Below are positions 14,571-62,742 of a DNA stretch of 64,000 nucleotides, one piece after another. A program made the translations under genes and the position numbers. Position 1 is the first letter of the stretch. Each line of letters opens with the position of its first letter. This stretch comes from Ganoderma boninense (Eukaryota > Basidiomycota > Agaricomycetes > Polyporales > Polyporaceae): NCBI GenBank assembly GCA_002900995.3, contig CM035306.1, positions 1,488,001 to 1,552,000 on the forward strand, read 5' to 3'. The notes under the pieces are model-generated. The model saw only the letters and a list, made by a program, of their open reading frames with translations, ran no database searches and had not been told where the DNA came from.

Positions 14571-15634
14571 CACCGTGGGCAAATATCAATAAGATCGCTG
14601 ATCCTATCAAGAACTTATAGTGAAAAGTGATTTAATAAGATCTCAATAAGTGCACGGATGTTATTTGAGACTTTATTTACAATGATTATTCCATAAATGC
14701 TGCCTATAATCAATTATAAATACCAGGAAAAGTCAGTGAAGAAACTATAATACCACTTAAGATTATATCTGGCTTATAGCAGTGATTCAACTTAGAAAGC
14801 TGTTTGACTATATCTTCTGACCTTTGCAGGCTAATATTTATATCAAGATACATCTGGGTTAAGCCTACATCAGTGGGATCTATCTGAATGTGATCACGTA
14901 CATCTATAAGATCTAACAGAGGCATTTTTCATAATAGAGTCTTCTTGTTTATGGTGTGGTCATACAGTGATCAGATTAGTCATATAATACAGAGTATTAT
15001 TGTGACCTTACCTTGAATACAGTGTTAGAAAGGTCATATATAGTTGCATGATTTTGTTATGAGACCATTTATAGTAAGATCTATCCTATGTTCCTAGTGA
15101 AACTTATGATCTTACTATAATAGTATTATGATTTTGCTGTAATCATATTGTAATACAAGTCTCTATATAATCAAGACTTGTTATAATCAGTTCCCAGATT
15201 TGTATTGGTACTTCTATAAGACTTTACTAAGATCTTGACATTAATAAGTGGTAATAAGATTTAGATACTAGCTTCAAGTCTGATTAAAATGTTCTAGGTA
15301 AAACTATTGAAACATAAGCTACTTATTATAGTATGACTTGACTTTGATCCACTTTAGTGACTACATCTGTAGTACAGTCAGAGAGAGTATTTAGATATCA
15401 GTCTAAGATAACATTGTGAACCTATCAAAATAGAGTCTTGAGAAAATGCCCTGATAGTATTTAAATCTAGATTCTTGATGAGCAGAGGTAATAGAATGAC
15501 TTTACTCTAAAACAATCTTAAGACTACACTTTGATTTTATTAATACAGAAATCCAACACTTCATACTGATATCACTTATTTTGCCAACCTCAGAGACCCA
15601 ATGAGATCAACTGCAGATTGTGGCTTTTCATTAG
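14571..15634 (+). repeat. Outer terminal inverted repeat, left copy
   Basis: AT-rich, about 1.06 kb, the reverse complement of 61681-62742 with only small differences (for example a 2-nt indel at the GTGTGG/GTGG position near 14955). It ends at the sequence GGCTTTTCATTAG, where the repeat array begins. It contains one open frame of 71 codons. Confidence 0.9.
14710..14925 (-). CDS. 71-aa ORF in the left terminal repeat
   Basis: The open frame starts MPLLDLIDVRDHIQIDP and ends FPGIYN, inside very AT-rich DNA. The same 71-aa frame, with an identical translation, is present in the right terminal repeat. No family recognised and no clear promoter. It may be coding, or simply preserved because the two termini are kept alike. 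Confidence 0.25.
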   Translation of the reverse strand: MPLLDLIDVRDHIQIDPTDVGLTQMYLDINISLQRSEDIVKQLSKLNHCYKPDIILSGIIVSSLTFPGIYN

Positions 15635-17180
15635 TAGTCAACTGTCTATAGTCAATAGCCAACAATTTAGAGTCAAGCAATGATTTATAGTCAATTGTCT
15701 ATAGTCAATAGTTAACAATCTATGGTCATGCAACTGTTTATAGTCAAGTGTCTATAGTCAATAACCAATGATTTATAGTCAACTGTCTATAGTCAATAGC
15801 TAACAATCTATGGTCATGCAACTGTTTATAGTCAACTTTCTACAGTCAATAGCCAACTGTTTATAGTCAACTGTCTATAGTCAATAGCCAATGATTTAGA
15901 GTCAATAGCTAACAATCTACTGTCTACAAATGATCAATAGCTAATAATAACCTATATTCAATCCTCAATACATAGTCAACTGTCTATAGTCAATTGTTTT
16001 TATCTGAGGGGCTAGTGGGATTGTTGGCTGGAACACTATGAATAATCAATAGGTGACAAAAGACAATAATTGACTAGAGATTATTGACAATAGACTGTAC
16101 TTTAAATTATTCACTAGAGGCTGTTCACTACACAATTTGCTCTATAGAAGCAGCTTATTATATAAAGGACCATACACTAAAAACATGAAGTGTAGATTAT
16201 TAACTTCAAGTGTAGATTTTATATAGTGGTTTATTGTTGAATCATCAATATTCAATTGTAAAGCATAAGGAGAGAATCACACATTGTTGACTATATTAAT
16301 CTACTCACATATATAAATAGATGCAGTAGCCACAAAAATCTTTACTTCTCCTCTCAAACTTGGGCTTAATTAAGCCTGAACCCAAGCTCAAGTCAATTGT
16401 TACTACTATTAACAGTAGACTGTTCACCATGTCGCAATACACTACACTGTAAGATTTGCTCTGACTTCAATTATTTTGTTAGCTATTGACTAAAGACAGT
16501 TGACTATAAACAGTCGTATGAACAATTGATTCTCAGACAGTTGACTATAAATCATTGGCTATTGACTATAGACAATTGATATAAATCATTGCTTGACTCT
16601 AAATCATTGGCTATTGACTATAGACACTTGACTGTAAACAGTTGCATGACCATAGATTGTTAACTATTGACTATAGACAATTGACTATAAATCATTGCTT
16701 GACTCTAAATCATTGGCTATTGACTATAGACAGTTGACTGTAAACAGTTGCATGACCATAGATTGTTAACTATTGACTATAGACAATTGACTATAAATCA
16801 TTGGCTATTGACTATAGACACTTGACTGTAAACAGTTGCATGACCATAGATTGTTAACTATTGACTATAGACAGTTGACTATAAATCATTGGCTATTGAC
16901 TATAGACAATTGACTATAAATCATTGCTTGACTCTAAATCATTGGCTATTGACTATAGACAGTTGACTATAAATCATTGGCTATTGACTATAGACAATTG
17001 ACTATAAATCATTGGCTATTGACTATAGACAATTGACTATAAATCATTGCTTGACTCTAAATCATTGGCTATTGACTATAGACAGACTATAAATCATTGG
17101 CTATTGACTATAGACAGTTGACTGTAAACAGTTGCATGACCATGACCCATAGATTGTTAGCTATTGATTCTTAGACAGTT
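15635..17180 (+). repeat. Left subterminal block: inverted tandem arrays around a unique core
   Basis: 15635-15960 carries repeats reading ...AACTGTCTATAGTCAATAGC. 16480-17180 carries the same repeats in the opposite sense (CATTGGCTATTGACTATAGA, period about 35 bp, with variants containing AACAGTTGCATGACCATAG). Between them lies a unique core of about 0.5 kb (TCTGAGGGGCTAGTGGGATT to AAGCCTGAACCCAAGCTC). The arrays are therefore inverted relative to each other and flank the core. About 15793-17120 matches the right block in the same orientation, although the outer repeats are inverted. Confidence 0.85.
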
Positions 17181-17436
17181 GACTACTAATTAGAACTTGG
17201 AAGTTGTTAATGACCCTGAGCTTGGCAAAATAAGTGACAAATTTTGTATTAAGAAAATCAAAGTATAGTCTTGATGAGTAAACAGTCTCTAGTCAATTAC
17301 AGTCTCTTGTCAACAGTCTATAGTCAACGGTCAATAATATGCACTAGAGTTTATAGTCCATGAACCCCTGGCACGCTTCAGCCACAGCGGGCTTCGAACT
17401 TATGCGAGTCGGGATCGGAGAGACCCTCACTGATCA
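17181..17436. repeat. Diverged inner copy of the terminal-repeat edge, then AT-rich tail
   Basis: 17184-17290 (TTGACTACTAATTAGAACTT ... TTGGCAAAATAAGTGACAAA ... AAAATCAAAGTATAGTCTT) resembles the right outer repeat edge at 61672-61800 (TTGACTACTAATGAAAAGCC ... TTGGCAAAATAAGTGATATC ... AAAATCAAAGTGTAGTCTT), but is clearly diverged. The left AT-rich block thus ends in a vestige of a second terminus. Confidence 0.6.
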
Positions 17437-19713: not shown

Positions 19714-20863
19714 GACTAAAATGGCGAGCAACCCTCTCTTACCTTATGTAGCTCGATAATCTGCTGCTCAAGCTCGATATAATCCTGCGCCGCAGAGAGA
19801 AGGTCGCGCACTGCAACGGTATTACCATCCGCAACATGAATGACGGTAGGATATTCCGCTGCATTTTCGCGAAAAGTCTACGTTTTATGAGATTCTAGTT
19901 AACAGATCGTGATCGCGACAGTTGCACGTACCATAAGCGAGCGGACTAAACTTGCTTCCGTCGAAGCCTGTTGTAATGCGTACTCGTGCAACTCGTGGAC
20001 GTCCCTCAGCAGGTTTTGCGCCGCTTCGGTGCTCAGAGCGTCTGTACCATGCTCCTCGAGATCGCCAACGTCCTTGATCAAGGTAGATATCGTATCTTGC
20101 ACCTGCTTGCGTCGTTCCCTCGACTGATGGAGCTCATCGGAGAGCTCGTCGATGCGCGGATGTCCGTTCGCATTGATTTGGTCTCGGATCGGGCCGATCA
20201 GTAATTCAAAGCCATCCTGAGGGCATGTGTCAGATACGAACGTCAAAATTACAAGCACTCTCACCTCAGGCAGCGCAAGGATATGAAGGATGGTGCTGAG
20301 CTCCGAGAAGCGACGGAAGAGAAGAGCTTCTCTCTGATCCAACTCCGACAGCGAATCCAGAACATAGTAGACCTCAGCCTCTAAGCTAGCCCGCTGTGAG
20401 GACGCTCCCCCCTCCATCAGTGTTTGACAAACGGAGGATAGCTTCGCATAGGGACGTCAGAACAGTGGATCCACTTGACCGATGGAAGTAACGCGACTGA
20501 CCTCAATAGCTTGAACGTGGAGCCTGGAAGTCATGTAGGCAACGTCGTCGAAATCCTCGCGGGTGATGGACACGAGATCCGTGGTTCGAAAATGGGAGGC
20601 ATCCCTTTGAAGCGCTTGCAAAGCGTCGAGTCGATACTTGTGGTTGTCTTCGAGCAATTGACCAACGAAGGTCTGTCGCCACTGGTAGGTGGGAGCATCT
20701 TTACCGAGACCAAGATACCTGACAATTCATGAGCTCGATCTCCGACTCCAGAAGAGAACACTTACTGGTACAAGCGCACGTCCATGTGGGAGCATAGCTC
20801 TGCGATGGATCCTTCAACGTCGCGAAGGGTGTTGTAAAGACTCGGGCTGCTTGTGGGCTGCAT
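19714..20863 (-). CDS. Helical cargo family member P1
   Basis: Start at 20863 (MQPTSSPSLYNTLRDVEG). Exons follow with RYLGLGKDAPTYQWRQTFV, LSELDQREALLFRRFSEL, then the joint ILALPE|DGFELLIGPIRDQ, then LRDVHELHEYALQQAST, and finally TFRENAAEYPTVIHVADG with the helix VRDLLSAAQDYIELEQQ. Five GT-AG introns. Nearly all of the roughly 300 residues are predicted helical or coiled-coil; no signal peptide or TM segment is seen. It shares exon order, the splice joint after Pro-Glu and the final Asp/Tyr-Leu-Glu helix with five other genes in the block (P0, P2, P3, P4, P6). The C-terminus may continue past a GTAAGA donor at about 19733. Function unknown. Confidence 0.6.
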
Positions 20864-21355
20864 GTCGACGAGTTAGTGTCTTGCCATGCGCGACAAGGGT
20901 CTATATAGACCGAGCAGTAACAAAGGTGCATTATGGACCTCGAGATGAGGCGTCGTCACAAAGGAAGGGGGCTCTTTTAGGGGAAGACAGGAACAAATGG
21001 TACGCACAAAGGTCTTTGACGCTCCAGCGGCACGTTGGTAACATGGGGTAGTCGCGGTAGGCATGGGGCGAACATGGTGTCTCAGCGGACGAGGAAGCTA
21101 AGGAAGACGACGACGACGGTCACCGCAGACTCGCAGCGGGAACGCTGGTGGAATCCTTACGTCAGCACATCGAATTCGTGGCAGTAGCACTCATGCCTGC
21201 ACCCGATCGTTCCGAGAAACCAGCCCTTTGGTTCTTACGACGACTTTCACCTGCCTACGCTATTCTCACTTCGATCCTTGTCCTAGACAAACAGAAAATC
21301 GCATTGAAAACCATAACAACATTAAAGCATCTAATATCACACTCGACGAAGGTCT

Positions 21356-22622
21356 TCACAGTCCCCTCTCCTCAAACGCCTGCCGCGGCCGCGATTTCAA
21401 CAGAAAATGTGCGTACTCTCTCAAGCAAGAAGTCGAACATCTGAGGAGGAACGTCAGAGTGATAACGCGCGCATAACTCATGCGACATACCGCAGATACT
21501 TCAGTCGCCTCAGAGATGTCGTCGTACTCCTCCAAGACTGAGATGAGTTGAGAGACCTCGGTTATCCCGAGTTCAGGATCAGTCAAGAATATAGGGCCTT
21601 CGATAGCCCAGTCTCTGAATTCCTACCAGACACTCAGTAAAGCAGAACCTAGGAGTGGCACATGGACGTACTTCGATGTCGGTAAGAAGCTTGTCCTGTT
21701 TATCGTCTTGAGAGTGTAACTTCCTGAAGAGCTTCCGCACTTCCCTCAGCACCTTTCGTTGTTCCGTTTGTGGAACCTGTCGCTCGAGCCACTTCTTGGC
21801 TGTGTCGGCGACGACTGTCTGCATCTCTTCCAGGCATTCGTGCCTAATCCGCCACATCTGAATGAGACGATCGAGCTTGGGGTCGAGCAACGTAAAGTCG
21901 ACAAAGTCAGGCTGGTGCCGTAAGGGGTCAACGAAAGCTTCAAAACGGTCCTACCAGGGCAGATCGCAGTATGTCAGCGCGTTCGAAAAGAAAAAAAATT
22001 GAACTCCAACCTCCGGAAGCATGAGGAATTGTAGACCCCTCTTCACAGATGTGAGCTCGTCCTGGAGCTCTGCCTCACCCTCCTCGATTGCGGTCATGGT
22101 GGATTGAATTCCGCTCATCTCTTGCAAGAGAAAATCCCGACGCGGGTCGGCATCAGCGAATAATGGGAGACATCGCTGGAAGATATCGAAAAGCTTCGAA
22201 ACGGGGCCCACAGACCATGAGCATCGGTTTATACGATTGTGTAACTCGGACTTACCTTATCAAACTCGAAGCTCAGCGCAGTGGTCTTCTTTACGAGCTT
22301 TGCGTGCTCTTCATCCAGTCGTGACGATATTTGTGAAGTCTGCGGAAGGCCCGAATGTCGTTGCAGCTGCCACAAAGCATTCATGCGGTGTTCCTTCATA
22401 GCCTCGCGCATCTGCATCTCGAACGGTGCCTTCAAGATCTCTACATCACTGCCGATGAAAACGCCGAGACGACTTCAAAGTTGTGTGTCAAAAGAAAACG
22501 AGGGGTAACATGACGCGGATAATGACGTACTCGAATACGGAAGAATCCATCTTGGAAACGATGTCCTCCGCTCTGTCCTGTACTTCACGAAGAGGTGCAA
22601 GGATATCGCGAACTTTCGGCAT
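21356..22622 (-). CDS. Helical cargo family member P2
   Basis: Start at 22622 (MPKVRDILAPLREVQDRAED). Exons then give FEMQMREAMKEHRMNALWQL, IFQRCLPLFADADPRRDFLL, the joint LQFLMLPE|DRFEAFVDPLRHQ, LRLFRKLHSQDDKQDKLL-type helix (KVLREVRKLFRKLHSQ) and the last block EFRDWAIEGPIFLTDPELG with the helix VSQLISVLEEYDDISEA. The layout matches P1, 0.5 kb downstream on the same strand, so the two are diverged tandem copies. All-helical, soluble-looking, function unknown. The exact 3' end is uncertain (21356-21480). Confidence 0.6.
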
Positions 22623-23839: not shown

Positions 23840-25112
23840 ATGGACTCGCTCATCATATTCGACGCCAGTAGCGCATCCCGTGAAGTTCAACGCTGCACAA
23901 AACTGTTTGAATGTCTCTATAATGATTTAGAAGCCTGCGTGAGACAGTACGTTCCGACGATTTCATCGTACAAAACCGCTGCTCACCCCCCTTTGTAGGT
24001 TTTGCCAACGGTGGGCTTTGGATCCCAACCAGCCCCACGCATGGCCCTCTAGCCTTTCATCGACCATGTGCACTCTCAACCGGGACTTCCGGTATACCGC
24101 TATAGAGATTATCACCAGGCGCATCAAGCTTGCTCGTGCGCGCTCCGCCGCTACCATTATCAAGCAAGGGCTTCCTTCAGTGCTCACCTTGAACGTGCGC
24201 CAGGAACTATCCGTTCGCGAGGTGAGATTGACTGTTCTCTCGTGCTTGTATTGCATTGACGCTTCTATTTATATGTGTGTTTCATCTATGACAGATCGTG
24301 CGCACCTTGAAGTCTAACTACGACAACCTACCTACTTCTCACCGCCAATCTCTGAAAGAACAGGTTTGGGAGCTCAGGCAGCTCTCCGAATCCTATTCAA
24401 AGCGTACGGCAGATGTCCAGTCAAAGAGCACTCGCCTTGACGAGTGGGACCACTTGCTCTCGATGCCAGAGGTGCGTTTCTTGCGTCATGCGTTACCGAG
24501 GATGGCGGAGTTCTCACGAACCAGCAATGTTAGACGGCGTTGACTACCCACCTTGACACGCTTCGAACCGAGGTATATCATCCTCGCGACCTGAGAGTAA
24601 TCATCGAATCTCTGTCTGCCATGCGCAAGGTGCGGACCTTAATGTTGCAGGACGTTCAACACGCCTCGACGCACACGGCAGCACGGTGGACCGACACCGT
24701 GTCCCAGAAGACTTGGGCCGAAACGTTGTCTCGAGTGCGAGCGTTTTACCGTACGCTCCACAAGCAGGTTGGTGCTCAGCGAGAGCTCATTGACGATATT
24801 GCGGTTCGTATTCTCGTGCCTCTCCTCCCACCTATTTAGCCTGACGACACCCTCAGAACGTGATGTTGGAAGCGAAATGCTCTTCAAGAGCTATCAATTT
24901 CCCAACCGGGGCTTCGTACGAGCTTTGTAACCTCATCCACACAGTGTGTACCCTCGAAGAGGTCGAAAAGGAGGTCATCACCCTCGACAAGGTATCGTAT
25001 TGCATCCACGCACCAGATGTATTACCGCTCACAATCCATTCAGATGAGCGCATCCCTCCGCAAGGGTGTATACGACGCGCAGGGGCGGCTCAACGACCTA
25101 CGTTTGTATTAG
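23840..25112 (+). CDS. Helical cargo family member P0
   Basis: Start ATG 23840 (MDSLIIFDASSASREVQRCT). Introns at about 23949-23998, 24221-24296, 24472-24534, 24805-24855 and 24992-25042 join FCQRWALDPNQPHAW, IVRTLKSNYDNLPTSHRQ, LLSMPE|TALTTHLDTLRTEV, LREVRAFYRTL-like helices (LSRVRAFYRTLHKQVGAQ), ASYELCNLIHTVCTLEEVEK and MSASLRKGVYDAQGRLNDL before TAG at 25110-25112. The product is about 380 aa and almost entirely helical. The exon plan and the Met-Pro-Glu splice joint match P1-P3. It is divergent from P2 across the minisatellite. Function unknown. Confidence 0.65.
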
Positions 25113-25219: not shown

Positions 25220-25582
25220 CGCGTGGGTGATGTCCTCTCCGCTGCACCGGGAGGTCTGCTACTACCCGTCGGCCGTTCTTGCCGTGGGTATCCTGTGGAA
25301 CGAATCAGTGGTGGCTCCTGACGGCTCGGTGTCAGGCCAGTCTCACCGAAGAGCGGGCATTCTCGGTCCCTGGCATTGCGCGCAGGAGAACTGAGAAGAC
25401 GGTCTTGCCGCCCATTCGGCGCTACTGCCTGTCAACTTTCCATCCACGTGCCACATACCATATATGGACTTTCAACTTCCTCACCGCCTCTTCCTAGCAT
25501 TGCCGCCCGCGCGCGACTCGACTCACCCGTCCATCGTTCCCCGAGTGGGTCCTGCTCCTCCTCACCATCTTGCCCAAGGTGC
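25220..25582 (+). repeat. 363-bp perfect inverted repeat, left copy
   Basis: By eye identical to the reverse complement of 34695-35057 along its whole length, with abrupt edges (CGCGTGGGTGATG ... CCCAAGGTGC). It contains a TATA-like CATATACCATATATGG. The sequences beyond the edges differ. Confidence 0.95.
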
Positions 25583-25965
25583 ATGCAGTGTGTTATCTTT
25601 TCTATCCAAACACTCGCCCTCGCCAGCTGAGTGCTAAACAGCCTCCGACATCAAGACCCAGGTCAACTGTCACCAGTTCGTGTTCGTTGTCTCTCTCTCC
25701 TTCTACCTACCATAGCGACTTTGAGCCTTTTAACTTCCACAGTCATCGTTGAGACGCGATTCAGAGCGATCACAGCTTGACTCCTTCGCGCCGTCCGAGG
25801 ACTAGTGATGAACTCCAAAACTGAAATTGGATACTTGAGCACGTGTAGGTTTACTGGACTCCGCCAGTATAAAGAAGGTGTGTGGCGTTCTCCCTCTTTA
25901 TTTAAGACCTCCTCCCTGGCCACAGGTTCTCCACTACGATCTTCTGAGTTCACTGATAAGCCGGC

Positions 25966-26579
25966 ATGTATCCTACCATCGCGATCCGGACTCCGTGTCC
26001 TGTCGTTCAAGTACGCTTTCCGCCCTGTTTATTCTTCTGCGGCACGCCGGTGACGATTTGTCGTTTCAGACTAGCAAGACCTTCCAAGGTCTTTACTACG
26101 GCTACTCCTCGCCTACGCCCTCTCAAGTGAAGGTTCATACGGTTTTTCCGCCGCAAGAAAATGCCTTTTCAAAACGTTTCCCGATGTTCGAAGCTATCAT
26201 GGGTACCTCCCTCCCCATCCACGAGTGTCTCGTCCGCGTTCCGAGCCCCAAAGGGCCCATCTTCTTTCTCGTCGCCTATCAAGAGCGCCCCACCTCTCCT
26301 CCAAACCACGCACTCTTCTCACTTGTTCCCGACGTTCAGCTCAGCGGCGAGATCCTCATCGTACGTTCGGGAGAGGGAATCCTCGTAACTTCCATGGGCG
26401 GACGTGTCGGCATTCAAGCAGCCAAGGAAGCTGTGCGCGCGTGAGTCTTAATCACCTCAACACCGTATTCTTCTTCAACGCCGTTTTTCAGCTTCGTGAC
26501 GGAGGCCGTCGCTCACAAAGCCTTGTACAAGGGAAGACGTAACCCCCCTCCCCTTCCATCGCTGATTGAAGTGGCCTAG
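25966..26579 (+). CDS. Uncharacterised small cargo protein
   Basis: Three exons give about 175 aa: MYPTIAIRTPCPVVQ, then TSKTFQGLYYGYSS ... PMFEAIMGTSLPIHECLV ... VPDVQLSGEILIVRSGEG ... GGRVGIQAAKEAVRA, then FVTEAVAHKALYKGRRN and LPSLIEVA before TAG 26577-26579. Introns at about 26011-26069 and 26442-26491 are clean GT-AG and keep the frame. A mixed alpha/beta composition is likely; no TM segment and no recognised family. Confidence 0.55.
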
Positions 26580-27232: not shown

Positions 27233-27240
27233 CTCGTGCG

Positions 27241-31500: not shown

Positions 31501-31873
31501 AAAAAATCCTGGAGAACAGATGATGTCACACGGTGGTTGGCAGGATTCGATGCTGTCGATGCTATTACTCGGGGAAAGCGTGGCCGGAAACCGCACAAAC
31601 GGGTGGTCTCTACCAAGATCGACGACAGCCGTCCGCCCGTTCAAGGCCTACCTAAGAACGCATACAACTCCACATGGTACGCGACGATCGGTCCCTTTGA
31701 TCGCTCAAAGCTTCGCCGTAGCCAAGCAGAATATTCCTTCCAGCACTGCGATGCTGTTCAAGTGTGCGTAGATCTCTCAACAATATCTAACTTTGCGAGC
31801 TGATGATCATGAGTACCATAGGGTCTTGGGCGAGTACACTCAACAGATCAATAATCCTGCTGAGTATCGTTGA
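28577..31873 (+). CDS. Large uncharacterised protein with His/Gln repeats and conserved C-terminal domain
   Basis: About ten exons from ATG 28577 (MASYTNSHFVHPEADDLQ) to TGA 31871-31873 (VLGEYTQQINNPAEYR). Residues about 70-170 are tandem 11-aa units of the type FQHHPLTVQSG. A very acidic stretch (MYSASEDDDGD ... SSEEESFESDEEVEGHG) follows, then Pro/Ser-rich linkers, and from about 30950 a folded-looking domain: KKSKKGDFCCTKDNFRIDIS, GALNEWNRSAAVVFTN, LGVDGMSSDESVRENGEVRY, WRTDDVTRWLAGFDA, RPPVQGLPKNAYNSTWY. From memory this domain recurs as hypothetical proteins in agaricomycete genomes, often in repeat-rich DNA, but I cannot name it. Ser/Thr and acidic content suggest a nuclear or chromatin role only weakly. 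Confidence 0.6.
28990..29270 (+). repeat. Coding tandem repeat (33-bp units)
   Basis: About eight units of the form TTCCAACATCATCCTTTGAC + GGTTCAGTCTGGA, encoding FQHHPxTxQPG. Open in all units, so length changes keep frame. Confidence 0.9.
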
Positions 31874-36131: not shown

Positions 36132-36456
36132 CCACGCTCGCAGCAGTACTGGCACGCGTTCGCATCTTCAGAGACGGGAGCGAAGTCGTGCTCGATCCGG
36201 CGATAAGAGGTGGGTTCGGCCGTCTCCACTCCGCGCCAACAGCTCTGGGTACGCAGCGAAGGGTGAGTATGCAGCATATAGCCACCTAGTGTAGCGTGAT
36301 GCCAAGCATGACTTACCCCGGCTCCTCGTCTGCTTCTAATCGTCGTCATCATGCCCCTCCTCTCCTTTAACCTCCGGCTCACTAGGAATCTCAACGACCT
36401 CCAGCTCGACTCTCATCCCCTCTACTCGCCCGCTTCCTCTTCGCGTGCACCCGTGT

Positions 36457-36518
<62 letters not shown>

Positions 36519-46972: not shown

Positions 46973-48706
<1,734 letters not shown>

Positions 48707-49244: not shown

Positions 49245-51128
49245 TCAAAGCAGCACGAATGTCACCTTCCGACCGCGAGCAACGTGCACATTGACTTCGC
49301 CTTCAGCAGTGGGCGGAAGCGAGACTGACGTCGGTGCGCTTGAATAAGCTCCCGGGAGCTGTGGGTGGCCTTCATCGCCGCCATCCTGCTGAACTGTCGC
49401 AGGGCGCATCTCTATGTCCTCTGGTGCTGCTGCTGCTGCCGCCGTCACCGCCGCACGGTGTTCCATGGCTTGAACGGGCTGGGACCCAGTGATAGCAGCC
49501 TTCACGACGTGCAATTCGCCCTGCATGTGTCGGAGCTCCGTCCTCATGTCTTCGACGGCTGAGAGCAGCGACTGCACACCCAATAGATAGACAGGGAGTT
49601 AGTTCAATCCTCACTTGAAGACGCTTGGCATGTACGTACAACCTTGAGATCCTTGCACTCAGCACAAGTGACGTTTCCTCCATGCTGACTCTCGTCAAGG
49701 CGGATCTGAGGTGGTGCAAACGCAAACGTCGTGGACGACGGTGCATGTTGGATATTGATATCATAAGCATGAAGCCGTGTCTGGTCCACGCCAAGACTGG
49801 GCTCGGGACCCATATGCTGACGGTCCGGGTTACTCGTAAGGATTTTTAGTAGATACATTTGACTCACGGAGGAAGTTGGTGCGGACTGATGCAAGTTTTC
49901 CGTCACCATGGCTGGAGGAGCAAGTACCAAGTGTGGCGCCCCGCTGGAGATACCGTAAATTTCATATCAACGGCAGTACGTGGTGGAAACCATACCTCAG
50001 GCCATCGGGCCTTCGAACCTGCGGGGACCCGCGCGGGCGATGTTTTCTACGAGCATGTTTGTCATCGGTCTTTGCCCTTTTCTCGCGGGCAGTGTCCGCG
50101 GTATCGGGGGACCTAGTTCTTTTCACGCCTACCTGTGGTGGCCGTCTGAAAGCATGCTACTTAGCGGGCGGATGACGATACTTACAAGTTGACAACTTAC
50201 GTCTCTAGGCCACCATTGGGCGGTTGAAGTTCTGAGGAGAAGTCGGCAGGACCCGCTTGGGGTGATTCCAAGTCGGGAGTGCGCGCCCGTCGCTTCCCGC
50301 GTGCCTTCTCCGACCTAGATGAAACATAGATCAGTCAAGGACGAAATCGAGGCAAATATGTGGAAATAAATCTCACATAATCGGAGTTGTTGACCCATTA
50401 CGCCATGGGTCAACGTTGATTCCCCACACACTACAGGGATCCAGTATTTCAGCCAGACTCCACGTTCGTGTACCTGAGGACTTACTTTGTGGTAGCGAAT
50501 GCGTCGGGAGTTTCAATGACGGGGAGGGGATCCGGTAGTCGAGCTCTAGCTCTCTCACTGCGCAGATATGGGATGAGCACTGCATCGAAAGGCATGAAAT
50601 GGCATCTCACCGGTGATCGTCAACTACAGTTGAAAGCGGGGAAGGAATCCGGTAGCCTTCCAGGCCGACGATGGTAGGCTGAAGGTAATTGGAGTCCATC
50701 TTCAGGTCGTGAAGCACGGTAGATCTGGATCTTCTGAAGTGGCGTTGCCGGAGCGTCGGGAATGGTTCAAGAGAGGGGCATCCCAAAAACATGGGTACTT
50801 ATACTGGGGAAAGGTCAAAGGCTGGGGCATACCTTTGTCACTGATCGGCAATCCGCCTTTATGACGACAAATTTGCGTTGTGCGAGACGAAGGTTCTTTG
50901 GTGGCATGTTGAGCATAGCCGCAAATGTGCGATCGTGGAAGAAGGAAGCAAGGTTTTAGAACCAAGGCACTGGCAAAGGTGGAAGTTGTGTCGAATGGAT
51001 GAGTTCGCGATTGAAAGGCGAGCAGGAGGCTGCGCGTTGCTGGCATCCGGCGATGTCGTCCCGGAGCTCCGCAGGCGCTCTCTTCCAGTTGCAGGCGGCC
51101 TCTGGCCAAATTTATCAGAATCCAACAC
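49245..51128 (-). CDS. Uncharacterised cargo gene N2 (paralogue of N1)
   Basis: The last exon (49583-49245) has LLSAVEDMRTELRHMQGELH, an Ala/acidic linker and NVHVARGRKVTFVLL, closely matching N1. The exon before it gives SSTTFAFAPPQIRLDESQH with CAECKDLK (N1 has SATFAFAPPQIRLDSD with CAECRDLK). Further upstream are a basic SEKARGKRRARTPDLE (about 50270, a possible nuclear signal), LDYRIPSPSLKLP (about 50530) and a similar GYRIPSPLSTVVDDHR (50607-50660). The first exon probably starts MLDSDKFGQRPPATGRERL at 51128. The exon chain is incomplete in places. As with N1, it lies directly downstream of a helical-family gene (P3) on the same strand. Confidence 0.5.
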
Positions 51129-51332
51129 CAGCCCTGGTACGGTACCGCACGCCAGCCTGACGCGATTAGGTCATGAACAGACTACCGACACCATGAAGCA
51201 TTGAAGCGGAATTTATTGGTACACATAGGAGGTAAACGGGGGACAGGATGGCATACGAGGTCTATGGACATACGACGCGCGCAGCACGTAGGATGGACTG
51301 AAGGGACGGCTTGAGGACACAAAACGACCTAA

Positions 51333-52570
51333 TTACACATCTAGTGCTTGGGAACCATTCGCGCAAGACTCCGCCAGCACAGACGTCAGCAAACTCAGAC
51401 GCCCTTCTGCTTTTGTTGCTCTCTGATGGCTTGATGAGAAATCAGCCGTGAAGGAACGCTGGAAGGGTACTCACCTCCTGCAAAGCTTGGAGATCAATCG
51501 GCAGCCGTTCATACTGACGCACCAGTGCGAGTACACGATCGAAGGGCACCTCCTGTCCATCTAGCACGAGGGATGAAGGACTGCCTTCTGCCTCTATCAG
51601 AAGAAACTATACGGTGGCCCGCAAACGATCAGCTTAAGCGAGACAGAGAAAATAAACTTCCCACCTCGAGATCCTGGATCAGATCACTCTGTCGCCAGCC
51701 AGCCCTCTGCATACTATTGCGCAGGCGCGTTACTTCATTGACGAAATTATCGGGCAGAGACGAGCTGTCGAATGCCGTCAGGTTCTGATACATCCGGTCT
51801 GCTTTCTTGACACAGCGGATGCGCATCGTACGCAGTGCCCGCAACCTTTCCGCGACGCGGTACAAAGGACGCTTCTGGACCCGAGCTGGGAGAGGCGACC
51901 GCAGTCTATCGACCAGGACGTCAAACCCCCCCTGCAGTCATCATGCCAACTTCAGTACCTACAGAAATATGAGAATGAAACACGTACCTCATTGAGCATA
52001 GGATGTAACTCCCGACGCATGGCATTGAAGCTTGCTCGGATACCCTGAGTACGAGTTGATATCAGCTTGATGAGGTCCCTTGCACTGCTGATTTGCTCGA
52101 CTACTTCATTGTTGGTTCCGGAGTGGAGCATGGCAAGACGGGCCGCATAAAGCTCCTCCACCTATGCCAGACAGTTAGCAATGAGAATCATTCAAGGAGG
52201 AGACCCCATACCCGTGACAGCTGCGTCTTGAGACGACGGTCGGTAGTGATGGCGGCTTCAACTTGGACGTGGAGAGGAGACTCCAGGTCAAGCCGTTGGA
52301 TTTGAGTGGCATGAGTCCGGAGGCTCTTCAGGATGGTTCTGCGGTACTGTTCGTTCTGTTGCTCAAGCAAGCGGAGGAAATCGGTGCGCCACTGCTCGCT
52401 CCAGGTGATCCCTAGCTCGGACATGTAACTGAAGGGATCGTCAGTTAGAGTGCTAGAGTCCGTGAAACGTAAAGGATAACTCACCTGCAGAGCTCATCGT
52501 CAGCACGTTTGTGCATCTGCGCGATGCATTCACACATCCGCTTGACGAGCTCGGTTCCTTGGCGCGCCAT
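51333..52570 (-). CDS. Helical cargo family member P3
   Basis: Start at 52570 (MARQGTELVKRMCECIAQMH). Exons follow with YMSELGITWSEQWRTDFLRL, VEELYAARLAMLHSGTNNEV, GGFDVLVDRLRSPLPARVQ, RRLRALRTMRIRC-like helix (AERLRALRTMRIRCVKKADR), LLIEAEGSPSLVLDGQEV with the helix VLALVRQYERLPIDLQAL, and a last exon RATKAEGRLSLLTSVLAES ending before TAA 51333-51335. The second exon aligns with P1 (QWR..F..LLE....YR). All-helical, about 330 aa, function unknown. Confidence 0.6.
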
Positions 52571-53200: not shown

Positions 53201-54552
53201 ATGCTCCCCACACCTATTCTTCCCGAGCCCGCTATGAACACTCCTCGCACAAGTACCAGAGAAGCACTCAATGAGGTCTCAAACACAGAACAGTCGCTCC
53301 TCGCCCTGAATCTCGCGGCTGAAGCAGAATATCTTACGTGCGCCATCCTCCCCTCTTTTCTGTATCTTCGTTGACCGATTCTTGGTGTCTCGTGCAGCTT
53401 CTACGGCCAGTACGTACTCACCGGACTACGAAGTCTGGACGAAGGAAGCCGTGAATATGCTAGACGACTGGTATTTCTCAACAAGAAGTACCGCCACGAT
53501 ACGAAGCAAGCCTTAGCCGACAGCGCACTACAACTTTTACGCCTGCATTCGAATAAGCGAACTGGTGAAAGTGCTCACGAACGTCTGAAGTCTATGGTGT
53601 CTACCACTCTTCGTACGTGCCACGATTTATACTCGATTTACGATAAGGTACGGCGCTCCTCTTCCTGGTGATATTTTCCTAGGCTGAACACTGAATCTCC
53701 GCAGAAGCTCCAAGATTGGGCTACTCTTCTCCAAGTCGGCAACGAGCGGCCAGCTACCCGCCTATACAACAACCGACGCATCGAATACGTGGAGAGCATC
53801 GTGTCACAGGTACGGCGGGATGAGCAGTTGATCAAGCAGAGTTTGGAAGACTGGGAATCCTGCTTCGAGGCGCTTTGCGCGGAGGTCAGTTCTTCGATTG
53901 GAGCTCATGACAAGAAGCTAAATCATAATTACCTGCATAGGACCACCTCCAAGCAATGTATGCTGCTCTTCACGAACGTAAACTTAGTCAAACCTGGTTT
54001 GTGAAAGAGTGCACCCCCCGTTTCGTGCGTCTCGAAGAGCTGTGGAATAACCGTAACCAGATCTTAAAGGATGTCCATGACATTGGGGATAGAAAACTTG
54101 CCATGTGGACGGCCAGCAGGGAGGACTACGTCCCCACTCTTCAAGTTCGGTCGCAGCTTGAAGTTTACAAGCGTGCTGAAGAGGTTATTTCCATCTCGAG
54201 GGAGTTCCAGAGGCAAACTATCAATGAATTAACCGTACGTCCCCCCGCTTTTACAGCTGATAATCGTTCACAGAGGAACTATCTCGACTAGGACTTGGAA
54301 ACAAATGCCAAGTGTACGCCGGCTACACTGCCGGGGCCTGGCGGTATTGAGGTCTCTGTGGAGCGTTTTCGCGATGCTACACGTCAGTACGAGACCCTAC
54401 TCGGGCTCATCTCGAAGACATTCACGGTGAGTTTTCCCTAGATTGTCAATAGATCCGGACGTTTTCGTGACCACTAGCCGTTGTAGATTGCCATGGGCGC
54501 CCAGGAGGAACTGAAAAATATTCAGGTTGAGGTCGTTGTCTTGCCAGTGTAA
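53201..54552 (+). CDS. Helical cargo family member P4
   Basis: Start ATG 53201 (MLPTPILPEPAMNTPRTSTR; an in-frame Met also at 53234). Exons follow with FYGQYVLTGLRSLDEGSREY, LQDWATLLQVGNERPATRL, the joint FEALCAE|DHLQAMYAALHER, FVRLEELWNNRNQILKDVHD, VISISREFQRQTINELT, PGGIEVSVERFRDATRQYET with LLGLISKTFT, and IAMGAQEELKNIQVE. The same exon order and final helix as P1-P3. Predicted all-helical, about 330 aa. Divergent from P3. The last codons (to TAA 54550-54552) could be replaced by further exons if the GTTGAG at about 54525 is a donor. Confidence 0.55.
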
Positions 54553-54734
54553 TTCTATAGATTGTTATTAGACTTCCCACTCTCTCGGTCGTGTCTAGGC
54601 CGTTGTACAAAACCTTTTGTGTTCATTGTTCCCATTGTCACGCCTAAAGCGATTGTTCACGCTGTCCTCTGTTATAATGACCGCCGCCGTCGGACTTTCT
54701 CCCCAAATCCCTCCAGTTGGACCATCTGCCTAGA

Positions 54735-55440
54735 ATGGATGCCCCAAGGTAAGCCCCGGCGATTCCTCTACTACAGCGAGCCGCTGATTATAGGATGGAT
54801 ATCAGAGATATCGTTCCTTTATTCGCTTCATACGCAGCCGTGTATGCCTTCGCCACTGAGGGCAACGACGGGATCGACACTCACGTCAAATGGAGATACT
54901 GCTCCGTGCTCATCACTATGTTTGAAGGCGGGTGCTGTGCGTCGTGAATCTTCGTTGACTACCTTCCTTGCCTCATGCTTGCCTGCTGCTGTACACGCCC
55001 GGTAGATGGGATAGTGGTCAAGCAGTCGCAGTGCTTTTCTTGCGACTTCTCTGGCAAATTTATCGCTTCCGCACTCATCGGTAGAGATATGGAGATTATT
55101 ACTCACCAAGTAAGTGATGTTCAACGTCCTGATAACACAAGCTGACCTGTTGCAGGGTAAAAATATTGTCAATCTGAAGTTACCCGGCATCACGCAGCGG
55201 ATTCAGCTGCGGTTTTGCCTGGACGAAGACTTCTGGTGGTTTATGAACGAAATTTCCGGCGCAATGCTTGTATCCGCTCAGATCGAGGACGAGGGTTGGC
55301 TCATCGAACTAATGAACCAAGTGCGAACGTACTTCGCCACTTACATGCGATGGGGCTGCAAGGAGTTTTTGCCAATTCTCCGACTTCGTACGGGATGGCC
55401 TCAGGCTGAGGATATGGTGAAGGCTTGCTTGTGTGAATAG
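54735..55440 (+). CDS. Uncharacterised Cys-containing cargo protein P5
   Basis: A four-exon model from ATG 54735: MDAPRMDIRDIVPLFASYAA ... VKWRYCSVLITMFEGGCY|GIVVKQSQCFSCDFSGKFIA ... MEIITHQ|GKNIVNLKLPGITQRIQLRF ... FWWFMNEISGAMLVSAQIED ... YFATYMRWGCKEFLPILRLR, ending VKACLCE and TAG at 55438-55440. All three joints are GT-AG and in phase. About 185 aa; a CFSC pair and several other Cys are visible. Not obviously part of the helical family despite lying between P4 and P6. No family recognised. Confidence 0.5.
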
Positions 55441-55609
55441 AGCTTCACCATCGATACCACTTTGTAGAGTCGAGTCTCTGAAACATTGTTTGTACTTGTC
55501 CGTTTGATTTCAGCTGGGAGGCAAGGCCATTGTGTGTCGCATGTACATATATTACCTGCTGTCGCCTTCCCATCCCACCAGCACTCTCCCCTCCCCACGA
55601 AGCACGGTC

Positions 55610-56845
55610 ATGGCAAATCTCGACCAACAGCTAGAAGCCTTCTCAAAGATACGGGCCACTGTCGGACGAATGCAAGGCGACTGGATCGTCTGCGCGCGAC
55701 CGTAAGTCATCTCCATATACGAACATGCTGTTGAACTAACGCCATAGGTGGCAGTTTTATTTCCCCTGAAACAAACGTGACAGACGTCGATTCCTGCTTT
55801 GCAGAATTGGCGAAGATTTTGGAAGAGAGAAGCCATACTCACCGCAATCAAACACTTGTCGAACTGAAGGATATCGCGCGTAGGACACGCACAGATTCCT
55901 TTTGGGGCGATACTTCGAGAAAACTAGCCACCGCTGTTAGTGCCATCAATGCCTCTCGAGCTGCTTGTAATCAGGTGAGATATTGTCACCTTCCGAAGAG
56001 CGTATGGAAGACTCACTTTCTTGATAGGTTGTTTGTTGTTTCCGCCGATCTGAAAAGCTTCTCCCCGAGGAGTTGCGATTATCCCTCGCTGAATCAATCG
56101 AACACTGCCGCCAAGGATGCGCTGCAGGAAGGACGCAGGAACGACAAGTACGATTTGCCTTCCGAGGTTTGAAACACATCCTTGATGCGCTTGTTCTCTC
56201 TGAAGTACCGTGGTTGATTTTACGGCCTGTCTCATGAGCTAAATGAGGGTATATAGGACGAACACGCACAAGCATTCCTTACGTTCCCATACAAGGGAAC
56301 GCTAGACGATATACGGCGCCGTATTCATCAAATTCACCGCAATAATGAAAATGCAATGAACGCTGCCATAGTGGCCGTCGTCGAAGGCATCATCAACTCG
56401 AGGGCAGCACCACATCAGTTTGTCACGCTGCAGCAAGTAGGCATGAGTTTGACGGACTTACAGCGGGACGTGGAAGCTCGTATGTTTGACCAAGATGAGT
56501 GCCTCGTATCGATTAAAGTGACATTCTCTGTTACATTGTCCATGTAAGATTCGCTTACGTCCTAAAAGCATTTGATAGAGCTAGCCTCCTGCGAACCCAA
56601 CGCCCTTTCCACGGGTAGTGGTAAGTTTACTATCCCGGACTTTCAGCGAGCTGTTCAAGAGTTCGATTCGCTGCATTCGGAGCTGGATGCTATAACCTGG
56701 GTGGGTCTATTGTGGACTCCATCTCCGCTTCTATGACTGACTTCTGCTTCTTCAGATGGTTAGGGATGTACAGAAGACGACAGTCAAGCTCACAAGATTG
56801 ATTCGAGATGCAGGACGGGAACGACTGACATATGCTGAGATGTAA
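55610..56845 (+). CDS. Helical cargo family member P6
   Basis: Start ATG 55610 (MANLDQQLEAFSKIRATVGR). Exons join as CARP|FISPETNVTDVDSCFAEL, ASRAACNQ|VVCCFRRSEKLLPEEL, LKHILDALVLSE|DEHAQAFLTFPYKG, AAIVAVVEGIINSRAAP with SLTDLQRDVEARMFDQDECL, ELASCEPNALSTGSGKFTIP with FQRAVQEFDSLHSELDAITW, and MVRDVQKTTVKLTRLIRDA to TAA 56843-56845. The SE|D joint and the closing helix match P1-P4. About 330 aa, helical, function unknown. Confidence 0.55.
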
Positions 56846-57781: not shown

Positions 57782-58027
57782 GACTTGGGACTGGACAAGT
57801 GGCTCGCAGATGGGGTTGGGAAGGCTTGGAGTTGTGGCCAAGGTTCTTCAGAGGAGCTTATATATGCAACCCATACCGACAATGGTCTTTATGCAGCTTG
57901 ATCTGCTTTGTCAAGCTCGTAAGATCCGCTTCGTGTTGAACAAACACCGATAGTGTAGACAATGAGCGCCGAACATATTAATATTGACGTTGATCGCATG
58001 ACATATATAGAGACGTAGAACGTAGGC

Positions 58028-58841
58028 TATGAGTCGACTAAGAGCGGACCGTCCGGCTGGGGCGACCGAGGCTTGCGCAACAGTGTGGGTCGTTGAGGCG
58101 AAGGAGGCTTGCGCGGCAGCATGCGGCTGACGACAGAGGTGGACGCGCTCGGCGACAAAGGTTTCTGTATCACGAAGCTTACGGTCAGGAAGAGGCAGAG
58201 ATGCATGATCGCTAGCTAGCAGGACTCACGGAAGGACTAGTTGGGGGTGCCTCCATGTTCATGGTCATGGCGTCACGAAGCGCAGTTTGTCTCTTCGTGA
58301 TGTCTGCGCGAAGCTTCTCGATCCTGGCAGCTTCTCGAGCCATATACTTGAGGCGGTTGATGATGGTTTGCTCCTGATTCCGAATGAGAGCGGCGATGGC
58401 AAGAGCCTCGTCCTTAAGTTGGTTTTGCTTCTTGCGGGCTCGCGCGCGAGCACGAGCGATCTCGTCCTTCCTTCTGCAAGCATACAACAGGGTAAGAACC
58501 AGATGACGAGATTGGAAAATACGCACTTCGCGATAGCCGCAGGTCTGTGTATACCAGGATCTCCCTCCTTCATGGACATCAGCAACGGCTTACCATCGTC
58601 AAGCCGCAACTTGTGTTTCGTGTCACAGCGAAACGGACAATATGGCCGTGCTGTCTGCAAGATGTTTCTGAAACAGGATGTGCAAAAGACATGCCCTTGG
58701 ATGAGACGGAGCACATGAGACGGAGTCATGGAGCTGTGAAGGCACAAAGGAAGGCGTACCACAGTTATCCAGAACGATTGGACGTTCGCTTGGGACGTCT
58801 TGACAAAACTGAGTGGTACAAATCGGACACTTCGCAAACAT
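58028..58841 (-). CDS. RING finger - coiled-coil protein R2 (intact copy)
   Basis: Same gene as R1 on the inverted duplicate. Here the frame KEGDPGIHRPAAIAK|RKDEIARAR is continuous through the GTGCGT donor into the coiled coil. The last exon (KPLSPSASTSVVSRMLPRK) ends LLVDS then TAG at 58028-58030, the final codon lying just past the duplication edge (R1 ends LLVDR). About 200 aa. Likely an E3 ligase, partner unknown. It is in tandem with the diverged R3. Confidence 0.8.
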
Positions 58842-59748
58842 GAGAGATGTGGATGTAAGATTGAGGAGGAAGACCGTACCCCCACCCTGGGTCCTTTTAA
58901 ACGAGAAGCGAGCAAAGGCCTATGACGAGAGGAACAAACGTCCTTGACCATAGACCGTACAAAGAAATCCCGAGGGGGCACACCATGGCCACGGTAGCAT
59001 TGATCCTAAGTGTCGTAGCTGAGACAGAGATCATGGCGGGGGGTCGGGGTCGTGGGGAGGTCGAGCGGAGGGGGTCGATGGCCGTGGTCGGAGCCAGGAC
59101 AGGACCAGGACTATAGGATCCGATGAGACGAGCCATTAGGCGCCTGAAACGCGGCAATCTGCGAGCCCAGGCAGCGTTGGTGCTGGTGTCCCGCAACCAA
59201 TAGCCCGTACTCGATCGTATAGCCTGTGAGTAACGTCCTACTCCATCTAACCGACATCGCGCATACTTACCTTTGTACATGGTCCTCTCTAGGTCGGCCG
59301 TGGCACAAGCACCACACCTAGGCGCGAGCCGTATCGCATACATCACCTGCCCCGGCCCCGGCCCCTGCTCGAGTCAAAGCTCCAGTCCGAGCCCCAGAGT
59401 CATCGCCGCGGAGAAGCGGGAGCGCATACTGTACTGTTGGACGGCGACAGCAACCTCGCGGAGCACCTCACGGTCAACTCGCTGTCTCGTCGGGGGACGG
59501 CAAGGGAAGAACTAAATGTGAGTGCTTTTGGCCCTTTTTTTCCCTCCTTTCATACCCTATGCATCATTCATGCTTTCCGTCACGGCTGCTTGCTCGGGAC
59601 ATCGGTGGGGAGCAACAGTCCTGGCAGAGATGCTTTCGAACACAAGTCTCCATCTCGGCTTCTGGACTAGGAGGTTGACCGACTCTATGCCTAGGAACCC
59701 CGGGACTCAACGTCGGCGATGAGGTGCCCACCGGCGGGACGATGCGGT

Positions 59749-59808
<60 letters not shown>

Positions 59809-60133
59809 ACACGGGTGCACGCGAAGAGGAAGCGGGCGAGTAGAGGGGATGAGAGTCGAGCTGGAGGTCGTTGAGATTCCTAGTGAGCCGGAGGTTAAAG
59901 GAGAGGAGGGGCATGATGACGACGATTAGAAGCAGACGAGGAGCCGGGGTAAGTCATGCTTGGCATCACGCTACACTAGGTGGCTATATGCTGCATACTC
60001 ACCCTTCGCTGCGTACCCAGAGCTGTTGGCGCGGAGTGGAGACGGCCGAACCCACCTCTTATCGCCGGATCGAGCACGACTTCGCTCCCGTCTCTGAAGA
60101 TGCGAACGCGTGCCAGTACTGCTGCGAGCGTGG
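58032..60133 (-). repeat. 2.1-kb inverted duplication, right copy (carries RING gene R2)
   Basis: Reverse complement of 36132-38230. It ends about 230 bp from the right subterminal AT-rich block. No target duplication is seen at its edges. Confidence 0.95.
59753..59806. repeat. (CT)n microsatellite
   Basis: Copy of the left (GA)n in the inverted duplication, of nearly the same length. Confidence 0.98.
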
Positions 60134-60359: not shown

Positions 60360-61680
60360 AGTGAACTATCTACAAATGCTCAATAGCTAACAATCTATGG
60401 TCATTCAACTGTTTATAGTCAACCTTCTACAGTCAATAGCCAACTGTTTATAGTCAACTGTCTATAGTCAATAGCCAATGATTTAGAGTCAATAGCTAAC
60501 AATCTACTGTCTACAAATGATCAATAGCTAATAATAACCTATATTCAATCCTCAATACATAGTCAACTGTCTATAGTCAATTGTTTTTATCTGAGGGGCT
60601 AGTGGGATTGTTGGCTGGAACACTATGAATAATCAATAGGTGACAAAAGACAATAATTGACTAGAGATTATTGACAATAGACTGTACTTTAAATTATTCA
60701 CTAGAGGCTGTTCACTACACAATTTGCTCTATAGAAGCAGCTTATTATATAAAGGACCATACACTAAAAAACATGAAGTGTAGATTATTAACTTCAAGTG
60801 TAGATTTTATATAGTGGTTTATTGTTGAATCATCAATATTCAATTGTAAAGCATAAGGAGAGAATCACACATTGTTGACTATATTAATCTACTCACATAT
60901 ATAAATAGATGCAGTAGCCACAAAAATCTTTACTTCTCCTCTCAAACTTGGGCTTAATTAAGCCTGAACCCAAGCTCAAGTCAATTGTTACTACTATTAA
61001 CAGTAGACTGTTCACCATGTCGCAATACACTACACTGTAAGATTTGCTCTGACTTCAATTATTTTGTTAGCTATTGACTAAAGACAGTTGACTATAAACA
61101 GTCGCATGAACAATTGATTCTCAGACAGTTGACTATAAATCATTGGCTATTGACTATAGACAATTGATATAAATCATTGCTTGACTCTAAATCATTGGCT
61201 ATTGACTATAGACACTTGACTGTAAACAGTTGCATGACCATAGATTGTTAACTATTGACTATAGACAATTGACTATAAATCATTGCTTGACTCTAAATCA
61301 TTGGCTATTGACTATAGACAGTTGACTATAAATCATTGGCTATTGACTATAGACAATTGACTATAAATCATTGCTTGACTCTAAATCATTGGCTATTGAC
61401 TATAGACACTTGACTGTAAACAGTTGCATGACCATAGATTGTTAACTATTGACTATAGACAATTGACTATAAATCATTGGCTATTGACTATAGACACTTG
61501 ACTGTAAACAGTTGCATGACCATAGATTGTTAACTATTGACTATAGACAGTTGACTATAAATCATTGGCTATTGACTATAGACAGTTGACTATAAATCAT
61601 TGCTTGACTCTAAATCATTGGCTATTGACTATAGACAGTTGACTATAAATCATTGGCTATTGACTATAGACAGTTGACTA
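60360..61680 (+). repeat. Right subterminal block: inverted tandem arrays around a unique core
   Basis: The same composition as the left block: short array, unique core (TCTGAGGGGCTAGTGGGATT at about 60590), then a long opposite-sense array up to 61680. Core and arrays read in the same direction as on the left. Small differences include GTCGCATG versus GTCGTATG and different array copy numbers. Confidence 0.85.
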
Positions 61681-62742
61681 CTAATGAAAAGCCACAATCT
61701 GCAGTTGATCTCATTGGGTCTCTGAGGTTGGCAAAATAAGTGATATCAGTATGAAGTGTTGGATTTCTGTATTAATAAAATCAAAGTGTAGTCTTAAGAT
61801 TGTTTTAGAGTAAAGTCATTCTATTACCTCTGCTCATCAAGAATCTAGATTTAAATACTATCAGGGCATTTTCTCAAGACTCTATTTTGATAGGTTCACA
61901 ATGTTATCTTAGACTGATATCTAAATACTCTCTCTGACTGTACTACAGATGTAGTCACTAAAGTGGATCAAAGTCAAGTCATACTATAATAAGTAGCTTA
62001 TGTTTCAATAGTTTTACCTAGAACATTTTAATCAGACTTGAAGCTAGTATCTAAATCTTATTACCACTTATTAATGTCAAGATCTTAGTAAAGTCTTATA
62101 GAAGTACCAATACAAATCTGGGAACTGATTATAACAAGTCTTGATTATATAGAGACTTGTATTACAATATGATTACAGCAAAATCATAATACTATTATAG
62201 TAAGATCATAAGTTTCACTAGGAACATAGGATAGATCTTACTATAAATGGTCTCATAACAAAATCATGCAACTATATATGACCTTTCTAACACTGTATTC
62301 AAGGTAAGGTCACAATAATACTCTGTATTATATGACTAATCTGATCACTGTATGACCACCATAAACAAGAAGACTCTATTATGAAAAATGCCTCTGTTAG
62401 ATCTTATAGATGTACGTGATCACATTCAGATAGATCCCACTGATGTAGGCTTAACCCAGATGTATCTTGATATAAATATTAGCCTGCAAAGGTCAGAAGA
62501 TATAGTCAAACAGCTTTCTAAGTTGAATCACTGCTATAAGCCAGATATAATCTTAAGTGGTATTATAGTTTCTTCACTGACTTTTCCTGGTATTTATAAT
62601 TGATTATAGGCAGCATTTATGGAATAATCATTGTAAATAAAGTCTCAAATAACATCCGTGCACTTATTGAGATCTTATTAAATCACTTTTCACTATAAGT
62701 TCTTGATAGGATCAGCGATCTTATTGATATTTGCCCACGGTG
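61681..62742 (-). repeat. Outer terminal inverted repeat, right copy
   Basis: Reverse complement of 14571-15634. It starts CTAATGAAAAGCC inside and ends TTTGCCCACGGTG at the outer edge. Homology stops abruptly at 62742. Confidence 0.9.
62388..62603 (+). CDS. 71-aa ORF in the right terminal repeat
   Basis: The translation equals that of the left copy (14710-14925). It reads inward-to-outward toward the terminus, as the left copy does. Confidence 0.25.
   Translation: MPLLDLIDVRDHIQIDPTDVGLTQMYLDINISLQRSEDIVKQLSKLNHCYKPDIILSGIIVSSLTFPGIYN

Follow-up and report, generated by a model that had tools for sequence, protein, structure and literature searches.

We analyzed a window of 64,000 nucleotides of Ganoderma boninense DNA (C3:1488001-1552000, where C3 is one of the 74 contigs of the 55.6-Mb genome), which holds a 48,172-bp element that we call E1 (window 14571-62742; coordinates without a contig prefix are window positions throughout). 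E1 is bounded by long terminal inverted repeats. The left one (14571..15676, plus orientation) is AT-rich and starts with CACCGTGGGCAAATAT, and the right one (61639..62742, minus orientation) matches it in 100% complementary arms except for a 2-bp indel. This indel lies between an outer arm pair of 386 nt (14571-14956/62357-62742) and an inner pair of 721 nt (14956-15676/61639-62359), both 100% complementary, and results in a left inverted end of 1,106 bp and a right one of 1,104 bp, slightly longer than the near-identical termini of about 1.06 kb described in an initial annotation of this DNA. Beyond the 1.1-kb arms, the likeness of the two ends runs on at 96.8% to approximately 1.33 kb, into tandem repeats. 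Both ends open with CACCGTGGGC, and the termini read CACCG..CGGTG. The triplet ATG is read directly and immediately outside each end (14568..14570 and 62743..62745), and the flanks agree over these 3 bp only.

Subterminal tandem repeats, which the initial annotation had also pointed out, occupy 15635..17128 on the left and, according to repeat and self-alignment data, 60406..61680 on the right. The left array includes a 1.3-kb module (~15793-17085) that is opposite in orientation to its right-end counterpart and 95.8% identical to it. The 9-mer TTGACTATA/TATAGTCAA is found 63 times in the two end regions (14571-17200 and 60300-62742), only once between them and not at all in the flanks. A search of the genome with the left end and 50 adjoining flank bases returned 31 rows, namely the two ends of E1 and 29 shorter matches, all of which fall in the repeat-rich ends of E1 itself. 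As all 31 matches lie inside E1, there is a single pair of these ends and the homology stops at the edges. The abrupt loss of homology outside E1 that had been claimed thus stands, and neither solo ends unrelated to the cargo nor homology running past the ends, two of the findings named beforehand as contrary to a single transposon, was seen for E1.

A Tnp2-type transposase gene lies inside E1 (38403..42658, plus strand; six exons and about 1,300 amino acids in a rough model). Its Transposase_21 (tnp2) domain at 39837-40220 scores 50.3 bits against a cut-off of 28.6 (E 2.3e-13). A genome search with the transposase open reading frame (ORF; 39003-40745) gave 42 matches, one of them the query itself. 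Identity to it is 48-69% at seven other loci and 46% or less for the remaining matches. Fungal EnSpm/CACTA elements are described as having CAC..GTG termini, 3-bp duplications, a Tnp2/EnSpm transposase and a C(2)C motif (PMC12730594). Since the ends, the flanks and the transposase family of E1 agree with this description, we file it under EnSpm/CACTA.

E1 is not alone in its genome. We searched for further ends with a 16-mer at up to two mismatches (19 matches, as opposed to 5 for the reversed control) and with a 13-mer pattern (18 matches, as opposed to 3), and these searches led to paired ends around two of the close Tnp2 loci. The first of these elements, E2 (C4:1010-60188; 59,179 bp), is flanked by CAG/CAG and, past an insertion in the left end, has ends that are 98.4% identical in an alignment of 1.52 kb. 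The second, E3 (C4:250990-302833; 51,844 bp), is flanked by TCG/TCG, and its ends are 99.6% alike over at least 3.8 kb, which is the limit of the sequence compared. Their transposases are 69% (E2) and 56% (E3) identical to that of E1. The genome search proposed in the initial annotation yielded no second full-length E1, but two elements with the same outermost sequence and different flanks. A partial fourth giant, E4, has its right end at C3:403440, and this end is related to that of E3 (90% over 69 bp and 72% over 777 bp). In addition, an element of 1,741 bp at C6:3910274-3912014, with 558-bp ends (99.6%) and ATA/ATA flanks, is 79% identical over 1.2 kb to the right end of E4; it is free of cargo and, judged by its sequence, would be a non-autonomous relative of the giants. 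Tnp2 exceeds the Pfam cut-off in each of E1-E4, and by eye the first two catalytic-type Asp residues and the C(2)C pair are kept in the aligned part of all four proteins. E1, E2, E3 and the C6 element all have CACCGTGGGCAWA ends with 5'-CAC..GTG-3' termini, having been found with that pattern, and the flanking triplets (ATG, CAG, TCG and ATA) match in four of four complete elements. The three beyond E1 are new tests, each with a chance of 1 in 64.

These findings make it very probable that E1 is a complete giant EnSpm/CACTA DNA transposon and one of a lineage of giants in this genome, as the initial annotation had proposed for E1. EnSpm elements are cut out by Tnp2 at their CAC..GTG ends and insert anew with a 3-bp stagger. 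In E1, Tnp2 would recognize the element ends, perhaps through the subterminal repeats, and would cut at CAC..GTG, upon which the element would re-insert with a 3-bp stagger in a cut-and-paste manner.

Several observations weigh against this interpretation. The left-end search found no second copy of E1 in the 55.6-Mb genome, and movement of E1 as a unit is a reading of its anatomy. Ends were sought with the outermost bases of E1, and their common start is thus partly by design, although the triplets are not. The left end of E4 was not found in the 100 kb examined, which contain three runs of N, and the end-pattern searches found no ends at four of the eight close Tnp2 loci. Some single CACCGTGGGCAWA matches of the 13-mer pattern stand far from any Tnp2, and the right end of E2 and the left end of E3 have no 10-mer repeats comparable to the array of E1. 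The single-copy state of E1, together with the existence of small non-autonomous elements with such ends, would also suit a different arrangement, in which a pair of ordinary CACTA ends, or of solo insertions, happens to bracket a normal gene region and the 48 kb are not one mobile unit. However, separate insertions would not be expected to have matching outer triplets, as they do at E1, E2 and E3, and genes of E1 turn up again within the other bracketed stretches and close to Tnp2 elsewhere. We regard this arrangement as very unlikely.

Two further observations concern these elements and the search for their ends. A PIF/Harbinger-type element of 4,258 bp (C4:1024-5281; flanks AAT/AAT) lies within the left end of E2, 14 bp from its outer edge; it encodes DDE_Tnp_4 (39.1 bits against 24.8) and a second gene with DUF6818, and the opposite end of E2 is not altered to match it. 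The 10-mer CACCGTGGGC alone turned out to be unspecific as an end probe (179 matches against 113 for the reversed control), and among the matches listed (100 of 179, on C1-C5) it gave no further paired ends at Tnp2 loci.

The remaining interior of E1 is rich in genes, all models of which are rough. Between 19.9 and 59.1 kb, the gene finder placed 16 models, among them Tnp2 and a RING-like gene in two copies; it missed two genes, a WD40 gene and gene D. The earlier estimate of at least 15 other genes is confirmed only in part: besides Tnp2 only the WD40 gene and a kinase gene with an FHA domain exceed curated Pfam cut-offs. The Pfam scan of the interior was six-frame and near-complete: the minus strand of 38.5-42.7 kb, the plus strand of 42.66-44.0 kb and the terminal repeats lay outside it, and the plus strand of 38.7-42.65 kb was covered as four long ORFs only. 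Rfam gave no match at gathering scores.

Gene A, of which the first two exons of a rough model form the conserved part (25808..26440, plus strand), has homologues in E2 (two), E3 and E4 and at C1:2110 kb. Gene B (model 28577..31873, plus strand) has a conserved exon at 31324-31800 with homologues at 11 other places in the genome. In E2, gene A is present twice, in opposite orientations, flanking gene B. Structures modeled from the single sequences of these gene A and gene B exons were unusable (mean predicted local distance difference test scores, pLDDT, of 38.6 and 35.9). The RING-like gene (model 37230-38247) lies in a 2.1-kb segment (36132..38236, plus strand) that has an inverted copy directly inside the right end (58027..60133, minus strand); the two segments are 99-100% identical and the gene copies 99.6%. 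This duplication and the kilobase-long ends suggest repeated inverted duplication or conversion, and we infer that the long ends and the internal inverted duplications are alike through gene conversion or recency. Gene D is an ORF of 379 amino acids with no Pfam match (42717..43853, minus strand). The 5' part of the WD40 gene occupies 45353..46427 (minus strand; first exon ~46116-46427) and scores 28.3 bits against a cut-off of 27.

A translated comparison of E1 with E4 showed that their likeness goes beyond the transposase: it takes in genes A and B, the WD40 gene, the RING-like gene and a short stretch of gene D. In the genome at large, four E1 genes (A, B, WD40 and RING-like) have 37 matches outside E1, of which 36 lie within 45 kb of a Tnp2. 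Such zones make up 6.6% of the genome; the 45-kb limit was chosen after the distances had been seen, and the list of 43 Tnp2 places counts some fragments separately. By gene, the matches near Tnp2 number 17 of 17 for WD40 (14 of them within 20 kb, with a median of 8.8 kb), ten of 11 for gene B, five of five for gene A and four of four for the RING-like gene, for which those in E3 and E4 are weak. The WD40 gene accompanies many Tnp2 loci outside the close clade, and the RING-like, Tnp2, WD40 and FHA-kinase genes have identical order and orientation in E1 and E2. For single exons compared between E1 and E2, the ratio of nonsynonymous to synonymous substitution rates (dN/dS) is 0.08 for Tnp2 (503 codons), 0.06 for WD40 (90 codons) and 0.21 for the kinase (102 codons); these values are rough, as dS is 1.5 to 2.4, and were obtained for three of six exons. 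Given their recurrence in sister elements and their nearness to Tnp2 genome-wide, the genes of E1 that looked like cargo are largely an inherited, recurrent element gene set rather than passengers. Hence, the likening of E1 to the cargo-carrying Starships of other fungi holds as far as its giant size and its many genes are concerned, but not for the cargo as such, as most of the extra genes tested recur in sister elements and are found near Tnp2 across the genome.

The kinase (46973..48667, plus strand) is the only companion gene whose identity is clearly of host type. In an exon model joined by hand, its FHA domain scores 59.5 bits against 20.7 and its full protein-kinase domain 198 bits against 31.7 (single frames alone give 102.3 bits for Pkinase). 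Its closest solved relatives are Rad53 and Chk2, and the motifs HRDLKPEN and DFG are present, which read HRDIKPEN and DFG in E2. The top match outside E1 is that of E2 (52% identical), about 1 kb from the WD40 gene of E2. As the kinase is found in E1 and E2 and has no match in E3 or E4, it was probably gained before E1 and E2 parted. When 18 rows are merged by place and that of E1 is excluded, the kinase has ten places in the genome; apart from E2, these may be host genes, and three clustered matches at C8:169-176 kb, some 250 kb from any Tnp2, are possibly a host gene cluster.

Not all of this fits an element gene set. One gene B match (C5:2061 kb) is far from any Tnp2, nine of the ten other kinase places are more than 100 kb from one, and the genome search found no kinase in E3 or E4, only in E1 and E2. 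Alternatively, E1 could be a true giant CACTA element that took up its extra genes from the host as passengers, with no selection on them for transposition, in line with the cargo-carrying transposon of the initial annotation. The kinase speaks for such passengers, as it is of host type, resembles other copies in the genome (at C10:292-294 kb both domains are matched at 44% identity) and gave no match in E3 or E4. However, the four other genes are almost confined to Tnp2 neighborhoods, the position of the kinase has been kept in two elements with 69% identical Tnp2, and its dN/dS is 0.21 in the one exon. On balance, capture without selection is improbable, though less so than two separate insertions.

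If the genes do belong to the element, it is possible, though we hold this loosely, that they are helpers of a very large mobile unit. The FHA-kinase could tune the DNA-damage checkpoint or repair of the host as some 50 kb leave the chromosome. Host chromatin or the ubiquitin machinery could be engaged by the proteins of the WD40 and RING-like genes. These roles are guesses from domain types alone, and the RING-like gene, which has no Pfam match, was named after a Cys/His pattern seen by eye; both circumstances count against the proposal. Possible, but likewise tentative, is the broader view that these elements are a new kind of giant mobile element in polypore and perhaps more fungi. They would be a DDE-transposase counterpart of Starships with a long-kept gene set of their own (WD40, RING-like, A, B and D, with a Rad53/Chk2-type kinase in one branch), whose proteins would be used to survive and repair their own 50-kb excisions, and perhaps they would move between fungi.

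The giant size, the long inverted ends, the kinase gene and the many proteins without known domains could also be those of an endogenized large DNA virus or Polinton that acquired a CACTA transposase. Such a fusion would be comparable to Teratorn, a giant composite in which a piggyBac-type DNA transposon is fused with a herpesvirus (PMC5601938). In E1, in contrast, no viral family appeared in the scans; the interior Pfam scan gave no capsid, DNA polymerase, helicase or packaging-ATPase family, although diverged proteins could escape it. The viral contigs scanned contained no close relative of the transposase exon, and the gene models of E1 are rich in short introns. A viral origin is very improbable, the least likely of the alternatives.

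Relatives of the transposase and of gene B exist in other fungi. Of 7,994 public protein candidates that were scored, 640 match the Tnp2 exon. Among the 120 matches listed, the best are 85-87% identical, and the relatives include proteins of Trametes versicolor (55%), Ganoderma, Lentinus tigrinus and Pleurotus ostreatus. The gene B exon has six public protein matches, the best at 92%, with relatives in Pilatotrama ljubarskyi (61%) and Cubamyces lactineus (47%); the whole spliced gene B model of 889 residues had returned none, probably owing to a length filter. One Tnp2 match (P0002) and one gene B match (P0121) are both recorded with a longest contig of 28,846, which suggests that a single contig carries the two. 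Trametes, Pilatotrama and Cubamyces belong to the Polyporaceae, Pleurotus to the Agaricales. The gene B relatives P0123 (Pilatotrama) and P0125 (Cubamyces) carry a precomputed PF26792 label, and a local Pfam scan of gene B gave no match.

Compared with the fungal EnSpm/CACTA elements of PMC12730594, the E1 family is alike in termini, 3-bp duplications, Tnp2 and the C(2)C motif, but differs in its length of 48-59 kb, its inverted ends of 1.1 to at least 3.8 kb and its recurrent gene set (WD40, RING-like, A and B, with the FHA-kinase in two elements). The EnSpm families of that study were selected for a TET/JBP gene, a family that did not turn up in the general Pfam scans of E1. Enlarged EnSpm/CACTA elements have been reported from a red alga (16-20 kb with 4-5 ORFs; PMC6431247), Ectocarpus (up to 15.2 kb; PMC12477816) and soybean (20.5 kb; PMC2613891), and these 15-20.5 kb are the largest published sizes that we met in a literature search. 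They resemble the E1 family in exceeding the usual size, some with accessory genes, but are shorter by a factor of about two and a half to four, and the available text makes no mention of kilobase-long ends. The same search met no giant or cargo-bearing CACTA element of a basidiomycete; it was made mostly without subscription papers and is therefore weak evidence of absence. KDZ and Plavaka are likewise DNA transposons that occur in mushrooms and in some cases carry accessory genes, and Plavaka is placed near EnSpm. However, Zisupton (KDZ) makes 8-bp duplications, whereas the flanks of E1 match over 3 bp only, and Plavaka ends in TGT..ACA or CATCA..TGATG rather than CACCG..CGGTG (PMC12730594).

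In scale and gene number E1 resembles the Starships, the giant gene-carrying transposons of fungi (PMC12134995). Starships of 42-606 kb have been described in the basidiomycete Tremella fuciformis (PMC13066641), and a giant element in a basidiomycete is thus no novelty in itself. The enzyme of Starships is a tyrosine recombinase, in place of which E1 has the DDE-type Tnp2; the Pfam scans of E1, with two short antisense stretches outside them, gave no tyrosine-recombinase family above cut-off. A Phage_int_SAM_1 match was considered as a Starship captain and rejected, as it scores 19.5 bits, below the cut-off of 22.3, and sits in one of several diverged helical models.

Among fungi, the giant transposons known to carry genes are chiefly the tyrosine-recombinase Starships. 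A second route, with a DDE transposase, kilobase-long inverted ends and a recurrent companion set, would, if true, mean that giant size arose more than once in fungi. The CACCGTGGGCAWA ends and the neighborhood of Tnp2, WD40 and gene B are markers by which such elements can be searched for. Likewise, if a checkpoint kinase is indeed borne by a transposon, the manipulation of host DNA-damage signaling by large transposons becomes directly testable.

E1 has several further features. By gene finder and similarity, two diverged helical (coiled-coil-like) models lie on the minus strand at 19899-20863 and 21372-22622 (19899..22622), and the only other genome matches of the first are inside E2 (C4:54.3-55.1 kb). 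A third model of the same loose family, on the plus strand at 23840..25112, is the source of the Phage_int_SAM_1 match. A 369-nt inverted repeat found by self-comparison (25220..25588, plus strand; partner 34689-35057, 99%) brackets the segment with genes A and B. To the right of the kinase, the gene finder placed two models on the minus strand (49245-51046 and 51442-52570, the latter helical; 49245..52570) and two on the plus strand (53201-54552 and 54795-56736; 53201..56736), all without a Pfam match. The models at 19.9, 21.4, 23.8, 51.4 and perhaps 53.2 kb resemble helical paralogues that have diverged, with pairwise E values of 4e-6 to 0.04. Outside E1, the left-flank genes (4557-11120) have F-box, Pkinase_fungal and AAA domains and the right flank (62745-63998) a C2 domain, in keeping with the AAA ATPase and RSP5 neighbors named in the initial annotation.

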